From: Loktanella sp.
Lineage (GTDB): Bacteria; Pseudomonadota; Alphaproteobacteria; Rhodobacterales; Rhodobacteraceae
Length of the DNA: 43,611 nucleotides
Assembly: GCA_024635625.1 (NCBI GenBank)
Contig: JAGXIQ010000014.1
Coordinates: 1 to 43,611 of the forward strand
Direction of reading: 5' to 3'
This document shows positions 4,835-42,081 of this stretch, piece by piece. The notes under the pieces were generated by a model. It was given only the letters and a program-made list of their open reading frames with translations, made no database searches and was not told where the DNA came from. Each line of letters begins with the position of its first letter. Position 1 is the stretch's first letter. Position numbers and translations under genes: made by a program.

Positions 4835-5715
4835 TTAGCAAGCGGTGGCAGGCTCATCAATACGGCATTAGCGTCGTGGCCAGTGGCAAGACCGAACTTG
4901 GTGCCACGGTCGTAAACAAGGTTGTATTCCGCATAAAGGCCGCGATGGATCAGCTGGGTGTCCTTGTCCGTCTCGTCCCACGGCGTGTCGCGACGACGTT
5001 CCACCAGCGGCTGATAGGCAGGTAGGAAAGCGCGACCGATATCTTGCGTCAGCGCAAAATCTTCTGCCCAATTGCCGGTGCAATGATCATCCATAAAAAT
5101 GCCGCCAACGCCGCGTGCGCGATTGCGGTGCGGAATATAGAAATATTCGTCGGCCCAAGCCTTTAGCCGTGGGTAAAGGTCGGTGCCATGCGGGTCGAGG
5201 TGCCTTTGCTGCGTCTCATGGAAATGGGCGGTATCGTCGCCATACTCGATACAGGGGTTCAGGTCCGACCCACCGCCAAACCACCACGCATGAGGCGTCC
5301 AGAACATGCGGGTATTCATGTGGACGGCGGGGGCGTGCGGGTTCTGCATATGCGCCACCAGCGAGATGCCCGACGCCCAAAAGCGTGGATCGCTATCCAT
5401 ACCCGGTACGCCGCGTGCTGCCATGGCGCGCTGCGCCGCCTCGCCGAGGGTGCCATGCACGACAGAGGTATTTACACCTACCTTTTCGAACACCCGCCCG
5501 CCGCGCATCACAGACATGACGCCGCCGCCGGCCTCTGACCCATCGTCGGACGTCCGCCGCGTTTCAGTACGCTCGAATCGGCCGGCGGGTAAGTTTGCAG
5601 TCGGACCGGCGGTCTGAGTATCCTCCAGCCCTTCGAAAGCCGCGACGATGGTGTCGCGCAATTCCCCAAACCAAGTACCGGCCCGCGCCTTTTCTTCGTC
5701 CATCATGTCGGTCAT
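4825..5715 (-). CDS. hemF: Oxygen-dependent coproporphyrinogen III oxidase
   Basis: HemF uses O2 to decarboxylate two propionates of coproporphyrinogen III, giving protoporphyrinogen IX in the aerobic branch of heme synthesis; it is a cytoplasmic homodimer. The 296 residues include the conserved GGGVMSVMRGGRVFEKVGVN block, HMNTRMFW, WWFGGGSDLNPCIEY, the YFYIPHRNRARGVGGIF segment and the C-terminal YNLVYDRGTKFGLATG, so the protein is complete (E. coli HemF has 299 residues). AAGGG precedes the chosen ATG by five bases; two more Met codons lie at residues 4 and 5. It heads a short operon with the LysE-type gene and is divergent from a small lipoprotein gene. Confidence 0.97.
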   Translation of the reverse strand: MTDMMDEEKARAGTWFGELRDTIVAAFEGLEDTQTAGPTANLPAGRFERTETRRTSDDGSEAGGGVMSVMRGGRVFEKVGVNTSVVHGTLGEAAQRAMAARGVPGMDSDPRFWASGISLVAHMQNPHAPAVHMNTRMFWTPHAWWFGGGSDLNPCIEYGDDTAHFHETQQRHLDPHGTDLYPRLKAWADEYFYIPHRNRARGVGGIFMDDHCTGNWAEDFALTQDIGRAFLPAYQPLVERRRDTPWDETDKDTQLIHRGLYAEYNLVYDRGTKFGLATGHDANAVLMSLPPLAKWV

Positions 5716-22272: not shown

Positions 22273-22369
22273 TCGAGAGGTTGGCGCGGGCGAGCGCCTC
22301 GCCAACTTGGTCAGGTCCGGAAGGAAGCAGCCATAACGAGCCCCGCTTGGGTCGTTGTCAGCCTCTCAC
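22273..22369 (+). ncRNA. ffs: 4.5S signal recognition particle RNA
   Basis: The small bacterial SRP RNA that binds Ffh and FtsY for cotranslational membrane targeting. The conserved apical domain is present as GGTCAGGTCCGGAAGGAAGC followed by AGCCATAACGAG, with the GGAA tetraloop and the symmetric and asymmetric internal loops. The ends pair: GAGAGG (22275-22280) with CCTCTC (22362-22367), giving a hairpin of roughly 95 bases, the common size in alphaproteobacteria. A good promoter lies directly upstream. Precise 5' and 3' ends are estimated within a few bases. Confidence 0.96.
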
Positions 22370-22423
22370 CTCATTTTCCCCGCCTTGTCAGGGTGCAGAC
22401 GCCTTGCCTAATCCTAGCCAGCC

Positions 22424-29977: not shown

Positions 29978-30072
29978 CGCAACGCTCCCTTCCAACTCGA
30001 AGTAACGCGTATATGTAACGATTGTTCAAAGACTTTCTTCGCTGCAGTGCCGCAACGCAACTGCAGAAAAAA

Positions 30073-33478: not shown

Positions 33479-34681
33479 TCATCGCTTTACAAGACTCCAC
33501 TGGGTGACCGGCATTGCCGGCCGCCAGCCCGTCAAGCGTCCCACAGGCTCTGCCCGGCAGACCGACAGCCTGACAAGATCCCCACCGTGCCGCGTATACA
33601 GCGCCATCAGAACGGCCTCTGATTCCAACGTCACGGCATTCACAACCAGCCGTCCGAGGGGGCGCAATGCGGCCCAAGCGGCCACGAACACGTCCTCGCT
33701 TAATCCGCCGCCGATAAAGATCGCATCAGGTGCCGCCAATCCTTCAAGGCAATCCGGTGCGGTCCCCTCCAACAGCTCTAGCTTAGGCGCACCCAGTGCC
33801 AGCGCGTTGGCCGCAGCCATCGCGCGTCTGTCGTCGCGCGGTTCGATCCCGATCGCGCGGGCATAGCGGGCGGCGCGCATCCATTCGATCGCGACAGAGC
33901 CGGACCCGCAACCGATATCCCACAAAAGAGCACCGCGCATCGGCATCAGCTTGGCCAACGTCGCCGCACGGATTTCCTGCTTTGTCATTGTGCCATCAGA
34001 CTGGAACAACTCGTCCGCCAACCCCGGCACCCGCGGCAGCAGGGCCGCGTCAGGGGCTGCGATACATTCTACTGCCAATGTATTGAAAGGCGGCACCACA
34101 TGGTCCCATGTGGCCGCAATCCCGTCAAACCGAGCCTCTGCTTTGCCACCCATCGCCGCAAGCACGGTCATCCGCGACTGACCAAAACCGCGTTGCGCCA
34201 AGTATGCTGCAATCTGCGCTGGCGTTTCCGCCCCCGTCGTTAAGATCAGAAGCCGGGCGTCAGGCTGGATAAATGCGACCATCTGCGCCACGGGACGTCC
34301 ATGCACGGTTAGCGTCTCGACATCTGCAAGGCTCCACCCCATGCGGGCGGCGGCAAGCTGAAACGCGCTAAGCTGCGGGTGATAGACTATTTCCGATGGA
34401 TCAATCGCCCTTCCGATGCGCGCGCCGACGGAAAACCACAACGGATCGCCGGTCACCAAGACAACGGCGCGCCGCCCCCGTAATCCACGGATCGTGTCGA
34501 TCATCGCATCGAACGGCGACGGCCAAGCCACACGCTCCGCCGTCACATTAGTCGACAAAGCATGATGGCGGTCACCGCCAAGGATGACCTCTGCCGCCTC
34601 GACCACGGCGCGGGTGGCAGGATTCAAGCCATCCATCCCGTCTTCGCCGATCCCGACGATATGTAGCCACGGTGCAGTCAT
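33479..34681 (-). CDS. cobL: Precorrin-6Y C5,15-methyltransferase (decarboxylating)
   Basis: CobL methylates C-5 and C-15 and decarboxylates the C-12 acetate. It is bimodular: a CbiE-like tetrapyrrole methylase (about residues 1-200, LHIVGIGEDGMDGL, VVLVTGDPLWFSVG) and a CbiT-like class I methyltransferase (about 225-400, DIGCGSGSVAIEW). In Salmonella these are separate proteins, so the fused form is typical of the aerobic route but is also found elsewhere. The ATG at 34681 overlaps the cobH stop in ATGA, which fixes the start; the open frame to 34777 is not used. 400 residues is a normal length. Confidence 0.95.
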   Translation of the reverse strand: MTAPWLHIVGIGEDGMDGLNPATRAVVEAAEVILGGDRHHALSTNVTAERVAWPSPFDAMIDTIRGLRGRRAVVLVTGDPLWFSVGARIGRAIDPSEIVYHPQLSAFQLAAARMGWSLADVETLTVHGRPVAQMVAFIQPDARLLILTTGAETPAQIAAYLAQRGFGQSRMTVLAAMGGKAEARFDGIAATWDHVVPPFNTLAVECIAAPDAALLPRVPGLADELFQSDGTMTKQEIRAATLAKLMPMRGALLWDIGCGSGSVAIEWMRAARYARAIGIEPRDDRRAMAAANALALGAPKLELLEGTAPDCLEGLAAPDAIFIGGGLSEDVFVAAWAALRPLGRLVVNAVTLESEAVLMALYTRHGGDLVRLSVCRAEPVGRLTGWRPAMPVTQWSLVKR

Positions 34682-35316
34682 GTCCGATCCTCCGGTAAGC
34701 CCGCGGCAAGGGCATTCACTGCCGCCGCGGCCAAGGCTGATCCGCCACGCCGTCCGCGCAGGGCGATGAAATCGCAACCGCGGGGGTCGGCAGCCAGTTC
34801 GGCCTTTGATTCCGCTGCCCCGACAAAACCCACCGGAAACCCAAGGATGACCGCAGGCAACGGCGCGCCTTCATCGATCAATTCCAGTAGGTGGAACAGG
34901 GCAGTCGGTGCGTTGCCAATAGCAACCACAGCCCCAGCCAGATGCGGTGCCCATAATTCGACGGCCGCGGCAGAGCGGGTATTGCCGATCGCTTTCGCCC
35001 TGTCAGGGACACTGCTGTCATTCAAAGTCACGATTACAGCATTGTCCGCTGGCAAATGCCTACGGATGATACCCGCCGCCACCATTTCGCAGTCGCATAG
35101 CACAGGCGCGCCGCCCGCTAATGCTGCTTGACCAGCACGTGCAGCGTCTGGCGAAAACGCAAGACGGTCCGCGATTTCTATCATGCCGCATGCGTGGATC
35201 AGGCGCGTCATGACCGAGTGCATGGCCACAGGAAAGCGGTCCAGACGCGCCTCGGCGCGCACTGTGGCAAAGCTTTGCGCGTAAATTGCGGCGGGATCTT
35301 TTTCGTAGGGTCTCAA
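34678..35316 (-). CDS. cobH: Precorrin-8X methylmutase
   Basis: CobH (CbiC) moves the C-11 methyl to C-12, turning precorrin-8 into hydrogenobyrinate (or the cobalt equivalent). The 212 residues include the catalytic His in TRLIHACGM, the VLCDCEMVAAGI segment, and the Gly-rich VILGFPVGFVGAAESKAEL and ALRGRRGGSALAAAAVNALA. The start is a TTG at 35316 (MRPYEKDPAAIYA), with AAAAGG upstream; no ATG or GTG fits the conserved N-terminus. It overlaps cobL by four bases and is separated from cbiX by 69 bases. Standard length. Confidence 0.94.
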   Translation of the reverse strand: MRPYEKDPAAIYAQSFATVRAEARLDRFPVAMHSVMTRLIHACGMIEIADRLAFSPDAARAGQAALAGGAPVLCDCEMVAAGIIRRHLPADNAVIVTLNDSSVPDRAKAIGNTRSAAAVELWAPHLAGAVVAIGNAPTALFHLLELIDEGAPLPAVILGFPVGFVGAAESKAELAADPRGCDFIALRGRRGGSALAAAAVNALAAGLPEDRT

Positions 35317-35385
35317 ACGGCTCTACCTTTTACGGGTTGAAGGGACGGACCCTTCTGGGGAGTTTAGGACGCCAAATACACGGGA

Positions 35386-36636
35386 TCAGGTCTTGCGTGT
35401 CTTGCGCGCACTTTCGGGTCCGTGAGGATGCTGAGCGTGCGGATAGACCGGGTGGGCGTGATCGTGAGGATGATCATGCCCGTGGTCGTGATGATGATGT
35501 CCATGGTCGTGATGGTGGTCGTGACCATGATCGTGGCTGTGCGGCTCACCATGGGTGTGGACTTGCTGGGCTTCCAGCCGGCATAGACCCGTACAAAAGG
35601 TATCGCAAAGCGCGCAGTCAGCGACGTTGGACCCCGGCGCATTAGCACCCTGCCCCTCGACATGATGGTGGTGGCTTTCTTGCACCGCACCGACTTCGCC
35701 CTCGAAACCCAGTACTTGAGTGCGATATTTACACATGACGCACAGCGCCGGGGGCGTGTCGCCAAAGGCGGGGTGGTTGCGGTCGGTCGCGCTGATCTCG
35801 CGGGATTCTCCGTTTGCCATGGCCAGCACTTGATCGCGGTAACCGCAGATGCCGCAGTTCGGCGGCGGGTTCGCCCCGGCCTGCTCGGTGATCCGCTCGG
35901 CAAAGGTTGCCAGAACCTTGGGATGATCACCCAAATAGCCTGCCTTGACGAATTGGATGCCCGGATGCTCGGCCGCAACACGGTCGGTAAAGCCATAAAT
36001 GCGGTCGATCAGTATGCCCGAGAACAGAAAATACGGGAATACGATGACACGCTTATAGGGCAGCAGCGCCACATGTTGCAGACATGGCTCCACCAGTGGA
36101 AAGGTCACGCCGGAATAGCCAACTTCGTGCCAGCCAAATCCCATACCTTCGGCCACCATGCGCGCGATCTTGGCGACGTTGCCGTTGGCGTCTGGATCCG
36201 ATGCACCGCGTCCAATAACGACAAGGCAAGTTTCTGACAGTGGCAGCGGACCGTGCTTAATGTTGGCCCGTTCCACCGCCTCGGTCACGCGGCCAGCTGC
36301 GGCCGCGATCATCTTAGGGTCGACCCCTAGTTCGCGGCCATAGTTTACTTTAATCCCGTGCTGCGCAGCGTAGGTGTTCAGCACAGTAGGAATATCGTTC
36401 TTGGCGTGCATCGCGGCGAACAGCATGCCGGGCACTGCTAGAATTCGGTCGCATCCCGCGTCGCGCAGTCGGTCCAAGCCGTCGCGAATTACCGGGTTCG
36501 CAAATTCAAGGTAGCCGTAGTCAACCAGCCAGTCGTCAGGCAGGAACGCGGGTAACTTTTGCGCCAGCGTGGCAAATTCGTCCACCGCCGACTGACTGCG
36601 CGACCCGTGGCCGCAAATCATCACACCGGTTTTCAT
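35386..36636 (-). CDS. cbiX: Long-form sirohydrochlorin cobaltochelatase with His-rich tail
   Basis: CbiX inserts Co2+ into sirohydrochlorin at the start of the anaerobic (cobalt-early) pathway. The 416 residues hold a CbiX/SirB-type chelatase domain duplicated to about residue 270 (GVMICGHGSRSQSA with His10 as metal ligand; VVIGRGASDPDANG in the second half). Three Cys pairs follow (CGIC, CVMC, CALC...CTGLC), which could hold an Fe-S cluster as in the Bacillus megaterium long CbiX. The C-terminal 60 residues are extremely rich in His and Asp, a likely cobalt store or sensor. It overlaps the upstream small gene by four bases (ATGA). CobNST, the late chelatase of the aerobic route, is not in the window. 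Confidence 0.92.
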   Translation of the reverse strand: MKTGVMICGHGSRSQSAVDEFATLAQKLPAFLPDDWLVDYGYLEFANPVIRDGLDRLRDAGCDRILAVPGMLFAAMHAKNDIPTVLNTYAAQHGIKVNYGRELGVDPKMIAAAAGRVTEAVERANIKHGPLPLSETCLVVIGRGASDPDANGNVAKIARMVAEGMGFGWHEVGYSGVTFPLVEPCLQHVALLPYKRVIVFPYFLFSGILIDRIYGFTDRVAAEHPGIQFVKAGYLGDHPKVLATFAERITEQAGANPPPNCGICGYRDQVLAMANGESREISATDRNHPAFGDTPPALCVMCKYRTQVLGFEGEVGAVQESHHHHVEGQGANAPGSNVADCALCDTFCTGLCRLEAQQVHTHGEPHSHDHGHDHHHDHGHHHHDHGHDHPHDHAHPVYPHAQHPHGPESARKTRKT

Positions 36637-37007: not shown

Positions 37008-37808
37008 TTAAAACGCGAGCACGCGGTCGGGTGTGATGCGATAGACCGTATCCGCCAAACCGTTTGCCGTCATGAAACGCACCAAGGATCCAAAGGTGGC
37101 TGTCTTGACGACCGGGCCATGATCCGCAGTCGTCAACGCAGGCACGGCAAATCCCGCGAGACCACGCTTCACCGCGTCCAAAAGGATCGTCTGTGGCTCG
37201 AAATAGGCCGCTATGTTGGCCTTGATCTGCGCAATGTTGTCTGTGCCATAGATGCTGGCCATCACCACATCCAGCGTATGTTCCGTGCAATTCTGGAACT
37301 GAGAGGTTCGTGGATTCGCAAGCACGGCATAAACAGGGTTGTGCAGCCGGGCGTAGCTCGGACTGGCGATCACCTTCAGCAGCTTGTCCTGCAACCGTGC
37401 GTCGGGGATGATAATACCAGCATCAAGACGATACGCTGCCGCAAAGAAATCAAACGGCTGATCCTGCACCAAGTCACTGTGTCCGCCGTCGCCCGTCCGC
37501 TGATAGAGGTTGTAGACCCGGTATCCCGTACCGATCTGTCCGTCAGCCTGCGTGATGGAGGAATAGACCCAGAACGCCACGTGCGTGAACGTCACGCCTT
37601 GCGGCAACTGCGCCGGATCGCGCCCCATGCGCGCAACGATAGCCACCCGCACACCACGGGCAGCAAGATCAAGCTGCACCCGGTTTGCAAAGGTCGCAAC
37701 CTCTGCCGCAGGCAGCACCGGTCCGCCGGCGCGGCTGCTGCCCGCCGCCGCAGGTCCGACGGTCTGGAAGATCAGAATCGCAGTCAGCAAGATGATGAAA
37801 ATACGCAT
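37008..37808 (-). CDS. DUF2145 family secreted protein
   Basis: A 266-residue protein with a signal peptide (about 1-22, ending PAAAG) and a DUF2145 domain. Motifs visible are EVATFANRVQLDLAARGVRVAIVARMGRD, GVTFTHVAFWVYSS, GYRVYNLYQRTGDGGHSDLVQDQPFDFFAAAY, and a conserved QNCTEHTLDVVMASIYG with a Cys and His. The pattern Cys...His is reminiscent of transpeptidase- or NlpC-like folds, but no activity is established. It lies 21 bases behind the small lipoprotein gene in the same operon, the usual pairing for this family. Expected in the periplasm. Confidence 0.83.
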   Translation of the reverse strand: MRIFIILLTAILIFQTVGPAAAGSSRAGGPVLPAAEVATFANRVQLDLAARGVRVAIVARMGRDPAQLPQGVTFTHVAFWVYSSITQADGQIGTGYRVYNLYQRTGDGGHSDLVQDQPFDFFAAAYRLDAGIIIPDARLQDKLLKVIASPSYARLHNPVYAVLANPRTSQFQNCTEHTLDVVMASIYGTDNIAQIKANIAAYFEPQTILLDAVKRGLAGFAVPALTTADHGPVVKTATFGSLVRFMTANGLADTVYRITPDRVLAF

Positions 37809-37829: not shown

Positions 37830-38135
37830 TCAGTTCAATTTTGGCGGGCCATCGGCCGCGATAGTTCCAGTTGCCAAGGTCGGGCCACCAGAGCCTTGGC
37901 TCAGGGCCGCCTCGCCCGAATCGACAAGCGCCGCGCCAGTCACGGCCAGCGTCGACCCTGTGACGATCAATGGCACTGCAATTGCTGATGCGCCGCCGGT
38001 CAAGACAGCGGCGGACCCGTGACCGGCTGCTTGTGCGCTGTGATCCACGGATTGACCGGCGTGGTGCGCACTTGGTGTATCGCAACCTGCCAGCATCGCA
38101 CCCGCAGCCAAGCAAAGAGGGAAAAACAATTTCAT
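37830..38135 (-). CDS. Small lipoprotein partner of DUF2145
   Basis: A 101-residue predicted lipoprotein with lipobox LAGC (Cys18) after MKLFFPLCLAAGAML. The mature protein has a His-containing N-terminal stretch (HHAGQSVDHSAQAAGHGS) and one hydrophobic segment (AVPLIVTGSTLAVTGAALV), then a Gly/Pro-rich tail. No family is recognised. GGAGAC precedes the ATG. It is the first gene of a two-gene operon with the DUF2145 gene. The nearer of the two palindromes (38154-38170) lies 18 bases upstream of its start, in the promoter region. Confidence 0.75.
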   Translation of the reverse strand: MKLFFPLCLAAGAMLAGCDTPSAHHAGQSVDHSAQAAGHGSAAVLTGGASAIAVPLIVTGSTLAVTGAALVDSGEAALSQGSGGPTLATGTIAADGPPKLN

Positions 38136-38153
38136 CGAAGTCTCCGATAATTA

Positions 38154-38170
38154 TTTGAACATCGTTCAAA
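38154..38170. promoter_or_regulatory. TetR-like operator, copy 1
   Basis: A perfect palindrome with arms TTTGAAC and GTTCAAA around ATC. It lies 18 bases upstream of the lipoprotein start. A second copy, in inverted orientation, lies 54 bases away (centre to centre), about five helical turns. The symmetry and length fit a TetR-family dimer; no TetR gene is in the window. Confidence 0.68.
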
Positions 38171-38208
38171 AATAGCTAAGCCGGACCACCAGGCCTGCCA
38201 GCAGATTT

Positions 38209-38225
38209 ATGAACGATGTTCAAAA
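38209..38225. promoter_or_regulatory. TetR-like operator, copy 2
   Basis: Arms TGAAC and GTTCA around GAT; read on the minus strand the core TGAACATCGTTCA is identical to copy 1, with flanking TTT partly retained. It lies about 105 bases before the glutathionyl-hydroquinone reductase start and between the two divergent transcription units, so both could be controlled by one regulator. Confidence 0.65.
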
Positions 38226-38329
38226 TCAATAAGCCGCGCACCTGTGCACGGTGTCTGCGCGCCTGCCCCTAATGTGCAAGGCGCGGATCGGCCCTATGTG
38301 TGTCAGAGTATATTGAGAGGAGACATGTG

Positions 38330-39316
38330 ATGGGCCTGCTGGTCGACGGACAATGGCAAGACAAATGGTATGACACCAGGGACTCTGGCGGAAAATTCGA
38401 ACGGGACGAGGCAAGCTTTCGCAACTGGATCACCGCCGATGGCAGTGCCGGGCCGTCAGGCGACGCAGGCTTCAAGGCCGAATCTGGACGCTATCATATG
38501 TACGTCAGCTACGCCTGCCCATGGGCGCACCGGGCGTTAGCGTTTCGCATGCTAAAGGGGCTAAGCGAACATATCACGGTCTCTGTTGTCCACCCCGAGA
38601 TGTTGTCCGAAGGCTGGACATTGGCCGACGACTACCCCGGTGCGACTGGCGATGATCTGTTTGGCGTTGACTATCTGCGACAAGTGTACCTGAAAGACAC
38701 GCCCAACATGACCGGCCACGTCACGGTTCCGCTACTTTGGGACAAGGCCAAAGGATGCATCGTTTCCAACGAAAGCTCTGAGATTATCCGGATGTTCAAT
38801 TCGGCTTTCAACGACATGACTGGCAATATCGACGACTACTGGCCTCAAGACCTGCGCGACGCCATCGAACCGGTCAACGACCGCATTTATCACACCGTAA
38901 ATAATGGCGTTTACAAAGCCGGGTTTGCGACGACACAGTCAGCCTACGACCATGCGGTCTATCCGCTTTTTGAAAGCCTCGATTGGTTGGAAGACATCCT
39001 GTCGCGCAAACGCTATTTGATGGGCGACAAGATCACAGAAGCCGACTGGCGCCTGTGGACGACGCTGATGCGGTTCGACAACGTCTACCACACCCATTTT
39101 AAGTGCAATCGCCAGTTCATCCGCGACTACCCGAACCTGTGGGGGTTCACCCGAGAGCTTTATCAGTGGCAAACCCCAGACGGACCGATGGCAGATACAG
39201 TGAACATGGATCACATCGTGCGGCATTATCATTACAGCCACGAGACGGTGAACCCGTACCGCATCATCCCGATCAATCCGTGGCCTGATTTTGATTTAGC
39301 GCACGGCCGCGGCTGA
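38330..39316 (+). CDS. Glutathionyl-hydroquinone reductase (Xi-class GST)
   Basis: A 328-residue Xi-class glutathione S-transferase that reduces glutathionyl-hydroquinones to hydroquinones using glutathione. The catalytic Cys is in SYACPWAHRA, with the GST N-terminal fold to about residue 160 (VPLLWDKAKGCIVSNESSEII) and the helical C-terminal domain with Tyr residues (YDHAVYPLFESLDWLEDIL, LMGDKITEADWRLWTTLMRFD, HETVNPYRIIPINPW). GGAG lies about ten bases before the ATG at 38330. It is divergent from the lipoprotein operon across two TetR-like palindromes, which fits control by quinone-like compounds. The stop overlaps the receiver pseudogene by 21 bases on the other strand. Confidence 0.92.
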   Translation: MGLLVDGQWQDKWYDTRDSGGKFERDEASFRNWITADGSAGPSGDAGFKAESGRYHMYVSYACPWAHRALAFRMLKGLSEHITVSVVHPEMLSEGWTLADDYPGATGDDLFGVDYLRQVYLKDTPNMTGHVTVPLLWDKAKGCIVSNESSEIIRMFNSAFNDMTGNIDDYWPQDLRDAIEPVNDRIYHTVNNGVYKAGFATTQSAYDHAVYPLFESLDWLEDILSRKRYLMGDKITEADWRLWTTLMRFDNVYHTHFKCNRQFIRDYPNLWGFTRELYQWQTPDGPMADTVNMDHIVRHYHYSHETVNPYRIIPINPWPDFDLAHGRG

Positions 39317-39860: not shown

Positions 39861-40253
39861 ATGACTACATGGATCACGATCTGCGACACCTGCAAGCGCG
39901 ACGGTTGGGATTTGACCGGTGCGCAGACGACTGACGGCGAATCCCTCGCTTCTCTGATCGAGGCAGAGGCCAAAGACGCACCCGGTGTACGCACCCGCCG
40001 CGTCGCATGCTTGATGGGCTGCAAGACCGGATGCAACGTCGCCGTGCAGGCCCATGGCAAACTTTGCTACACCCTTGGCAACTTTAGCCCGGATACAGAC
40101 TCTGCCACCGGGATCGTGGGCTATGCTACCCTGCACGCGGCCTCTGCCAGCGGGCAAGTGCCCTATCGCGACTGGCCGCAAGCGATCAAAGGCCATTTCG
40201 TCACCCGCCATCCACCGCTGCCGGATGCTGATCCGGAAACGGACGCCGCATGA
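39861..40253 (+). CDS. DUF1636 Cys-rich metal-binding protein
   Basis: A 130-residue soluble protein of the DUF1636 family (metal-binding proteins found with cobalamin genes). It begins TTWITICDTCKRDGWDL, with CDTC, and has a second Cys group in RRVACLMGCKTGCNVAVQAHGKLCYT, together resembling a thioredoxin-fold 2Fe-2S or zinc-binding site. Its TGA overlaps the start of cobC (ATGA), so they are cotranslated. A role in cobalt or redox handling for cobalamin synthesis is inferred from position. No signal peptide is present. Confidence 0.85.
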   Translation: MTTWITICDTCKRDGWDLTGAQTTDGESLASLIEAEAKDAPGVRTRRVACLMGCKTGCNVAVQAHGKLCYTLGNFSPDTDSATGIVGYATLHAASASGQVPYRDWPQAIKGHFVTRHPPLPDADPETDAA

Positions 40254-41185
40254 AGCCGCCTCGGGACCACGGTGGCGGTCTGGACGCTGCCATTGCCACG
40301 TTCGGCGGGAAACGCGCCGACTGGCTGGACTTGTCGACCGGAATAAATCCGATCCCCTATCCGATGCCCAGCATGCCCGACGCCGCGTGGACCGCACTGC
40401 CGGATCGGGACGCTTTGGCAACCTTAATCCAGCGTGCCCGCGCCTTTTGGAACGTGCCGGCCGGTGCTGCGGTCCTTGCCGTCCCCGGCGCGTCTGCCGC
40501 CATCGCACAACTGCCTCGTCTACGCGACGCCGGGCGCGTGGCTATCCCCGGCCCCACGTACAACGAACACGGCGCCGCATTCCGCGCCGCTGGCTGGACA
40601 CTGGACGATAATGCCCGCGACGCGATGGTCGCTGTCCATCCCAACAACCCCGATGGCATGATGTGGGAGGCCGAAAGTCTGACCGCCCCATTCACAATCA
40701 TCGATGAAAGCTTCTGCGACGTAGTACCCGCTGCCTCGCTGATCCGCCTAGCAGCCAGACCCGGCACTGTTGTGCTGAAAAGCTTTGGCAAGTTCTGGGG
40801 CCTTGCAGGCCTGCGCCTTGGCTTTGTCATCGGTGATCCTACGATTATCGCCGATCTTGCAGAAGCACTTGGTCCTTGGCCTGTGTCCGGTCCTGCCCTC
40901 GCCATCGGGGCAGAGGCACTGGCAGATCCGCAATGGGCTGACGAGACCTGCGAACGCCTAACCATGGATGCCGCCCGCCTCGACGCGCTGATTATAGCGC
41001 AGGGCGCACTGGTCATAGGTGGCACCACGCTCTTCCGCCTTTATCAGGTTGAAGACGCCGCAGCTGCCCAAACCCACCTTGCCCGTCACCGCATATGGAG
41101 CCGGGTTTTCCCCTACGCTGCGAATTGGCTGCGCCTTGGCATGCCGCCGCCCGACCGTTGGGCGCAAGTGGAAGGCGTGTTTTGA
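40250..41185 (+). CDS. cobC: Threonine-phosphate decarboxylase-like protein (CobC/CobD)
   Basis: A 311-residue fold type I PLP enzyme that decarboxylates L-threonine O-3-phosphate to (R)-1-amino-2-propanol O-phosphate, the linker of the cobalamin nucleotide loop (called CobC in Pseudomonas and CobD in Salmonella). It starts with the family N-terminus HGGGLDAAIATFGG, DLSTGINPIPYP, then PGASAAIAQLPRL, GPTYNEHGAAF, VHPNNPDG, IIDESFCDV and the Schiff-base Lys in LKSFGKFWGLAGLRLGF. It overlaps DUF1636 and the next gene cbiB by four bases each. Slightly shorter than Salmonella CobD (364). Confidence 0.92.
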   Translation: MKPPRDHGGGLDAAIATFGGKRADWLDLSTGINPIPYPMPSMPDAAWTALPDRDALATLIQRARAFWNVPAGAAVLAVPGASAAIAQLPRLRDAGRVAIPGPTYNEHGAAFRAAGWTLDDNARDAMVAVHPNNPDGMMWEAESLTAPFTIIDESFCDVVPAASLIRLAARPGTVVLKSFGKFWGLAGLRLGFVIGDPTIIADLAEALGPWPVSGPALAIGAEALADPQWADETCERLTMDAARLDALIIAQGALVIGGTTLFRLYQVEDAAAAQTHLARHRIWSRVFPYAANWLRLGMPPPDRWAQVEGVF

Positions 41186-42081
41186 CCCTGATATTGGGCC
41201 TCCTGCTGGACGCCCTGCTGGGAGAGCCGCGCTGGCTATGGTCACGTATGTCCCACCCTGCCGTCCTCATGGGCCGCGCTGTCGGCTGGATCGATACACG
41301 CGCCAACCACGGCACCAATCGAAGGGCAAAGGGTACGATTACCTTCGCGCTACTCTGCCTTGCCTTCGTTGGCCTCGGGTTCGCCCTTGCCGCACTTCCC
41401 GGCCATGTGATCGACGTCATCGTGTTGGCGATCCTGCTGGCACAGCGCAGCCTTGTGGATCACGTCGGCCTTGTTGCCACTGCCCTGCGCCAGTCGCTAT
41501 CTGCTGGCCGCACAGCTGTTGCCCAGATCGTCGGGCGTGAAACGAAAAACCTTGATGAACCCGCCATTGCCCGCGCCGCCATCGAATCCGCAGCCGAGAA
41601 TTTGTCCGATGGGATCATTGCCCCGGCCTTCTGGTTTGCTGTCGCGGGCTTGCCCGGCTTGTTGCTTTACAAGATCACCAACACAGCCGATTCCATGATC
41701 GGCTACCGCACAGCTAAATACGAAGAATTCGGCTGGGCGGCTGCCCGGTTCGACGACCTGCTGAACCTGATCCCTGCCCGCCAGACCGCACTGCTGATCT
41801 GGCTGACCAGCCCAAAACGCGCTGCCCTGCCCGCAATCATGACAGAGGCCCCCCGCCACCGTTCTCCCAACGCGGGTTGGCCAGAAGCCGCAATGGCGCA
41901 GGTTTTGGGTATCGCACTATCAGGGCCGCGCATCTACGACGGGCAATCCCGCGATTATCCTTTCGTGAACGCGGCAGGCCGTCGCATGATTGGCCCCGCC
42001 GACATCGAAAACGCCTGCACAGTCCTGTGGCGCACATGGGCACTGGTGCTTTTCGCCGCCTTGGTTGTGACCCTGTTCTAA
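41182..42081 (+). CDS. cbiB: Adenosylcobinamide-phosphate synthase
   Basis: CbiB (CobD in Pseudomonas) is an integral membrane protein that joins the aminopropanol linker to adenosylcobyric acid. I place the start at a TTG at 41182, which overlaps the cobC stop as TTGA and has GGAAGG six bases upstream; the frame before it is not conserved. The product (299 residues) has LILGLLLDALLGEPRWLWSRMSHPAVLMGRAVGWID at the N-terminus, the ESAAENLSDGIIAPAFWFAVAGLPGLLLYKITNTADSMIGYR block near the middle and hydrophobic segments throughout. It completes the cobC-cbiB pair, consistent with a cobalamin-producing strain. Confidence 0.93.
   Translation: MTLILGLLLDALLGEPRWLWSRMSHPAVLMGRAVGWIDTRANHGTNRRAKGTITFALLCLAFVGLGFALAALPGHVIDVIVLAILLAQRSLVDHVGLVATALRQSLSAGRTAVAQIVGRETKNLDEPAIARAAIESAAENLSDGIIAPAFWFAVAGLPGLLLYKITNTADSMIGYRTAKYEEFGWAAARFDDLLNLIPARQTALLIWLTSPKRAALPAIMTEAPRHRSPNAGWPEAAMAQVLGIALSGPRIYDGQSRDYPFVNAAGRRMIGPADIENACTVLWRTWALVLFAALVVTLF

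Follow-up and report, generated by a model that had tools for sequence, protein, structure and literature searches.

The 194-base intergenic region at 38136–38329 of the window, i.e., the whole 43,611-nucleotide stretch of DNA analyzed here, carries two palindromes. On one side lies a small lipoprotein gene followed by a gene for a DUF2145 protein, on the other, divergently oriented, a glutathionyl-hydroquinone-reductase-like gene. We asked which of these genes the palindromes serve and which regulator reads them. The features of the locus are:

37008–37808, minus strand: DUF2145 protein, 266 amino acids; PF09916 at 150.6 bits, signal peptide read by eye, predicted YiiX-like fold
37830–38135, minus strand: small protein, 101 amino acids, first gene of the operon; lipobox read by eye
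38156–38168, no strand assigned: putative proximal operator, TGAACATCGTTCA; ATG of the small lipoprotein gene 20 bp downstream; matrix score 28.1 of 32.2
38173–38201, minus strand: inferred promoter of the lipoprotein-DUF2145 operon, between the operators; −35-like CTGGCA at 38196–38201, 17-bp spacer, −10-like TAGCTA at 38173–38178
38210–38222, no strand assigned: putative distal operator, TGAACGATGTTCA on the plus strand, 54 bp from the proximal operator; matrix score 30.0 of 32.2
38330–39316, plus strand: glutathionyl-hydroquinone-reductase-like GST gene (GST_N_2/GST_C_2), a neighbor that is probably outside the regulon

Cobalamin-biosynthesis-like ORFs, read from their translations, flank this arrangement of DUF2145 operon and reductase gene at 33479–36636 and 40250–42081; on one side they resemble genes for precorrin methyltransferase, precorrin isomerase and a chelatase, on the other genes for CobC/CbiB. 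The window also contains a bacterial small SRP RNA at 22274–22371 (RF00169, 55.5 bits).

Paired palindromes around a probable DUF2145 promoter

The initial annotation had described two identical-core palindromes about 54 bases apart in the 194-base region, and this was borne out: TGAACATCGTTCA occurs exactly at 38156–38168 on the plus strand and at 38210–38222 on the minus strand. The core is a near-perfect dyad, TGAAC-N3-GTTCA, and the opposite orientation is hence informative only for the central triplet, ATC in one copy and GAT in the other. The match extends beyond the operators into two 20-nt arms, 38154–38173 and 38205–38224, that are 95% complementary. Allowing up to two mismatches, the window holds four matches to the operator compared with 0.84 expected. 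We built a weight matrix from 165 sites with at most one mismatch at other DUF2145 loci and scanned the window with it. The two operators reached the scores listed above, and the next best position scored 14.2, below the 15.4 reached by the best of 20 mononucleotide shuffles and inside their range. Throughout the 3.58-Mb genome, nine exact TGAACNNNGTTCA sites were found, compared with one for the reversed control pattern. The two palindromes are genuine and appear operator-like. A sequence at 30015–30030 had also been proposed as a relative of the operator. It is present, but was rejected as a copy because at least three of its ten core positions mismatch and it falls below the matrix threshold used.

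Conservation of the motif and its enrichment near promoters in related genomes had been named as the test of the initial proposal, and for DUF2145 both were found. We sampled 80 DUF2145 loci, the best 80 of 149 from a scan of genome contigs, a few of them short. An exact site was located within 600 bp upstream of DUF2145 in 76 of the 80 loci and two or more in 58, counts that are not independent, given the kinship of the genomes and the overlap of some loci with genomes of the family sample. In total, the upstream regions contained 143 exact sites in nominally 48,000 bases, versus three in the 615,727 bases elsewhere, and those three precede PspA in a single locus (L133). Pairs of sites, each with at most one mismatch, were spaced 46–56 bp apart in 68/80 loci, with a peak at 52–54. 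The loci without an exact site were L142, where a TetR gene adjoins DUF2145, and three distant ones (L203, L204 and L205). Judged by this conservation, DUF2145 is the real partner of the sites.

The paired loci of relatives also provided the promoter geometry. In 61 of the 68 pairs a TTGAC box follows the distal site by 6–10 nt when read towards DUF2145, and in none of the 68 when read in the other direction. The operator pair therefore brackets one promoter, which is a natural arrangement for a repressor. In the window, the inferred promoter at 38173–38201 occupies the place of this box. Its own −35 element, CTGGCA, is degenerate and a poor match, and a consensus promoter scan of the window called no promoter at these positions; across the paired loci of the relatives, conservation of the −10 region is no more than loose. 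No structured RNA with an Rfam match at the gathering score was found at the DUF2145 promoter.

A candidate TetR-type regulator and its own sites

The nine exact sites in the genome comprise two at the window locus, four on contig C54, one on contig C15 and two within coding sequence (C4:101633 and C110:1148), which were set aside for that reason. Seven of them hence fall into three intergenic places, i.e., the DUF2145 locus, a TetR/PspA locus and the region upstream of a gene for a multi-pass membrane protein. An unlinked TetR-type regulator had been predicted initially, and the genome-wide motif search led to such a gene preceded by the same site:

Locus L020 (contig C54), 4485–5078, minus strand: TetR-like gene, 197 amino acids, candidate regulator; site at 5096, 17 bp upstream

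Three further sites lie between the end of this gene and a PspA-like gene, which is followed by a YiaAB-like gene. The C54 TetR protein matches TetR_C_33 with 35.9 bits (cut-off 26.8) and, weakly, TetR_N with 20.2 bits (cut-off 24); in its orthologues from L033 and L055, TetR_N rises above the cut-off (34.3 and 26.6 bits). Its closest solved chain, 3cjd_A, aligns over the full length (E 1.1e-55). A search for 3cjd in mainly open literature found no paper with that code; the solved structure of this near relative opens the pocket of the regulator to examination. The C54 gene is absent from the list of eight TetR_N genes obtained by domain scan and was found through its own sites.

The PspA-like gene on C54 is interrupted by an in-frame stop at about position 4134 of L020. 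Each of its open parts separately matches the L098 PspA, and the C-terminal part scores 14.9 bits only with the PspA/IM30 profile. In 23 other loci of the 30 TetR loci the PspA-like ORF is in one piece; the stop could mean that the gene is truly a pseudogene, or stem from faulty assembly. The L098 proteins gave 86.7 bits for PspA/IM30 (PF04012) and 47.5 bits for YiaAB, and the YiaAB-like protein of our genome 17.5 bits, below the cut-off.

At the third place, on C15, the site precedes a membrane protein gene that appears multi-pass by eye. We found no Pfam family at E ≤ 0.1 and no NCBIfam family at E ≤ 0.01 for its product, and the provisional name 'DUF2157-like' was dropped for that reason. 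A homologue, in L121, gave a sub-threshold PspM match only. Homologues with upstream sites are present in L121, L122 and L125, and of the further site-bearing places inspected (L090–L097 and L119–L128) only these three were counted. The others include genes for small lipoproteins and for further proteins that look secreted or membrane-bound, together with chance-looking matches inside longer ORFs, e.g., in L093, L095 and L096. L090 and L124, from two genomes that have the TetR, share a similar small lipoprotein-like gene with one or two sites just upstream; the L090 protein has no convincing Pfam or NCBIfam match, and the gene is a possible further member of the regulon.

Matches to the C54-type TetR at E ≤ 1e-10 occur in 69 of 248 genomes of the family, which is taken as Rhodobacteraceae in the broad sense and includes our own genome. 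Of the 30 best loci (again with our own), 29 have an exact site in the 150 bp preceding the TetR gene, L053 being the exception, and 25 have one within 200 bp downstream, 24 of them two or more. PspA is a neighbor in 24 and YiaAB in 23 of these loci. The number of exact sites per genome was 5.05 in 19 genomes with and 1.95 in 19 genomes without the TetR (Mann-Whitney p = 1.3e-6, kinship ignored), and the reversed control gave 1.00 and 0.89, respectively. Both sets were hand-picked, mainly for few contigs, and the TetR-positive set includes our own genome and three that have only a second TetR clade. The excess in the TetR-positive set is largely the TetR/PspA locus itself, e.g., all four sites in G231, and one TetR-negative genome, G101, yet contains six exact sites.

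Regulator and DUF2145 also go together. DUF2145 is present in six of the 248 family genomes, all of which have the TetR (hypergeometric p = 4e-4). A TetR of the C54-type family lies within 18 of the 80 DUF2145 loci, directly after DUF2145 in 17, and in L055/L098 one array runs from PspA-YiaAB through a site, small secreted protein and DUF2145 to the TetR. For 50 of the 80 loci, a genome search covered 49 genomes and found the TetR encoded in 46 (best E between 9e-85 and 1e-42). The three TetR-free genomes, those of L203, L204 and L205, are also site-free (Fisher p = 5e-5), a co-absence that is confounded by their phylogenetic distance and may in part be explained by it. L207, a record from a Nitrospinaceae metagenome-assembled genome and distant too, has both: its TetR gene is divergent to the small protein-DUF2145 pair with two sites between them. 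As it stands far from the Alphaproteobacteria, this suggests that the module was transferred horizontally or that the contig was binned wrongly. The sites and their conservation, the promoter geometry, the linkage to TetR and this co-occurrence are direct observations. As judged from these comparisons, the C54 protein very probably binds both sites at the DUF2145 promoter.

The reductase gene and other readings of the sites

The initial annotation had placed both divergent genes under the TetR-type regulator. Its lipoprotein-DUF2145 half was supported by the sites at 76/80 loci, and its reductase half was not supported. What speaks for the reductase is position: its start lies 107 bp from the distal operator, in a common intergenic region, such that in this organism the TetR might use the two sites in both directions. 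Its homologues argue otherwise. The reductase has matches at E ≤ 1e-40 in 202 of the 248 genomes; among the 29 homologous loci compared (the best 30 of those 202, minus our own), none has an exact site and four have a site with one mismatch, and on this lack of conservation we rejected the reductase as a regulon member. A same-genus genome, G006, encodes a homologue with 86% identity and has no site there, nor any match to the TetR or to DUF2145. Furthermore, the reductase gene is found upstream of DUF2145 in none of the 80 loci, a few of which are short, and the longest ORFs in that position form 41 clusters in 78 loci; the sole copy seen among the DUF2145 loci is in L133, 2.3 kb beyond the TetR gene. 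Finally, the promoter bracketed by the operators reads away from the reductase. We therefore regard joint control of both genes as unlikely, and the juxtaposition of reductase and DUF2145 operon is, from these comparisons, best read as chance adjacency.

It might also be that a different regulator, another TetR or a member of another family, reads the operators and that the C54 TetR is found near similar sites by coincidence. The genome encodes eight other TetR_N genes, the assembly is about 92% complete and the link to the C54 protein stems from sequence comparison. However, the eight listed genes were ruled out because the site is in none of their loci, whereas it precedes the C54-type TetR in nearly all of its best loci, a TetR of this family recurs in the DUF2145 loci themselves, and the presence of sites matches that of the TetR in each of the 49 genomes searched, of which the three negative ones are distant. 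We consider coincidence highly improbable. A second TetR clade and the L207 TetR are only 27–32% identical to the C54 protein but have its motif; that two diverged clades are both assigned one motif counts against the C54 reading. As to the mode of action, two sites with a spacing of about five helical turns would be compatible with cooperative contact, and the TetR could then activate, or loop between the operators. Yet the promoter core between the sites already explains the spacing, and the proximal site just after the −10-like region is in a repressor position, which makes activation or looping very unlikely. With these readings weighed, we find it highly likely that the palindromes are operators of the unlinked C54 TetR, which would repress the lipoprotein-DUF2145 operon, its own gene and PspA-YiaAB, with the reductase merely adjacent.

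DUF2145 and a possible envelope-repair circuit

The operon regulated in this way would encode two exported proteins. The 101-residue small protein matches no family in Pfam or NCBIfam; read by eye, it has a lipobox here and an ordinary signal peptide in the five relatives of the alignment. The DUF2145 protein matches PF09916 across positions 2–200 of the 200-position profile. Its AlphaFold2 model, obtained from 36 sequences, has a pLDDT of 88.5 and a pTM of 0.84. In VIA-align the model superimposed on two permuted papain-like enzymes, over 172 residues of YiiX (2if6; Z 11.4, rmsd 3.9 Å) and over 98 residues of HRASLS2/LRAT (4dpz; Z 5.2, rmsd 3.8 Å); Foldseek of the model against the PDB gave nothing at E ≤ 0.001, and PDB sequences searched with the DUF2145 profile gave nothing at E ≤ 1. 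HRASLS2 is a phospholipid-acting enzyme, and the NCTEH around Cys174 of DUF2145 presumably resembles the NCEH motif of the LRAT family. His76 and Cys174 are invariant in all 36 aligned sequences and are candidate catalytic residues. A 2023 classification, in the excerpts available, lists DUF2145 among papain-like families, there with serine replacing cysteine (PMC10318531), in contrast to the invariant cysteine in its NCTEH-like context found here. In the proposed reading, DUF2145 would act on envelope material in the periplasm, as a hydrolase or acyltransferase of the YiiX/LRAT-like kind.

Binding and repression by the TetR, the inducer and the enzyme activity are inferences. Two repressor dimers at both ends of one sigma-70-type promoter would exclude RNA polymerase from the lipoprotein-DUF2145 operon, and the same TetR would occupy its own promoter and that of the neighboring PspA-YiaAB genes. 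A releasing ligand, plausibly produced by membrane damage and perhaps lipid-derived, would free the TetR from its sites, and its release would jointly switch on PspA, YiaAB, the DUF2145 operon and the gene for the multi-pass membrane protein. Tentatively, and as a reading that we regard as possible rather than probable, we propose a previously undescribed envelope-repair circuit of Rhodobacteraceae. In it, a TetR-type sensor of a lipid-derived ligand, instead of PspF or a two-component system, would control PspA-YiaAB and the LRAT/YiiX-like DUF2145 with its small secreted partner. In the periplasm, damaged phospholipid or lipoprotein would be remodeled by DUF2145, while PspA patches the inner membrane. 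If the TetR reading is true, DUF2145 is placed in a membrane-stress circuit. A protein without assigned function would then, through its conserved operator, its candidate regulator and the link to the PspA operon, become a testable envelope-stress protein.

We searched the literature, mainly open papers, for DUF2145, for TetR in connection with PspA or phage shock, and for YiaAB with PspA, and among the matches listed there was no description of this circuit. The available portions of PMC10318531, PMC11237479 and PMC2587700 likewise describe no TetR/PspA/DUF2145 circuit. Excerpts of the last of these report a putative RpoN site at a PspA-like cluster of Pseudomonas (PMC2587700), and the main text of a 2024 Psp survey, as far as available, mentions neither TetR nor YiaAB (PMC11237479).

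In its TetR_N and TetR_C_33 domains, the site upstream of its own gene and the paired sites over a promoter, the C54 protein is like autoregulated TetR-family repressors with short dyad operators. It is unlike the named TetR families in that it stays under every NCBIfam cut-off listed, and 3cjd_A is itself annotated merely as a TetR-family regulator. At the level of the system, Psp and PspA-IM30 envelope stress responses, whether controlled by PspF, LiaRS or otherwise, likewise have a dedicated regulator next to a PspA/IM30 protein and a small membrane protein. The circuit proposed here would differ from them in its TetR-type regulator and in a regulon that includes YiaAB and DUF2145. A TetR-controlled PspA system would hence add to the Psp responses a type of regulator absent from the available main text of the 2024 survey (PMC11237479).
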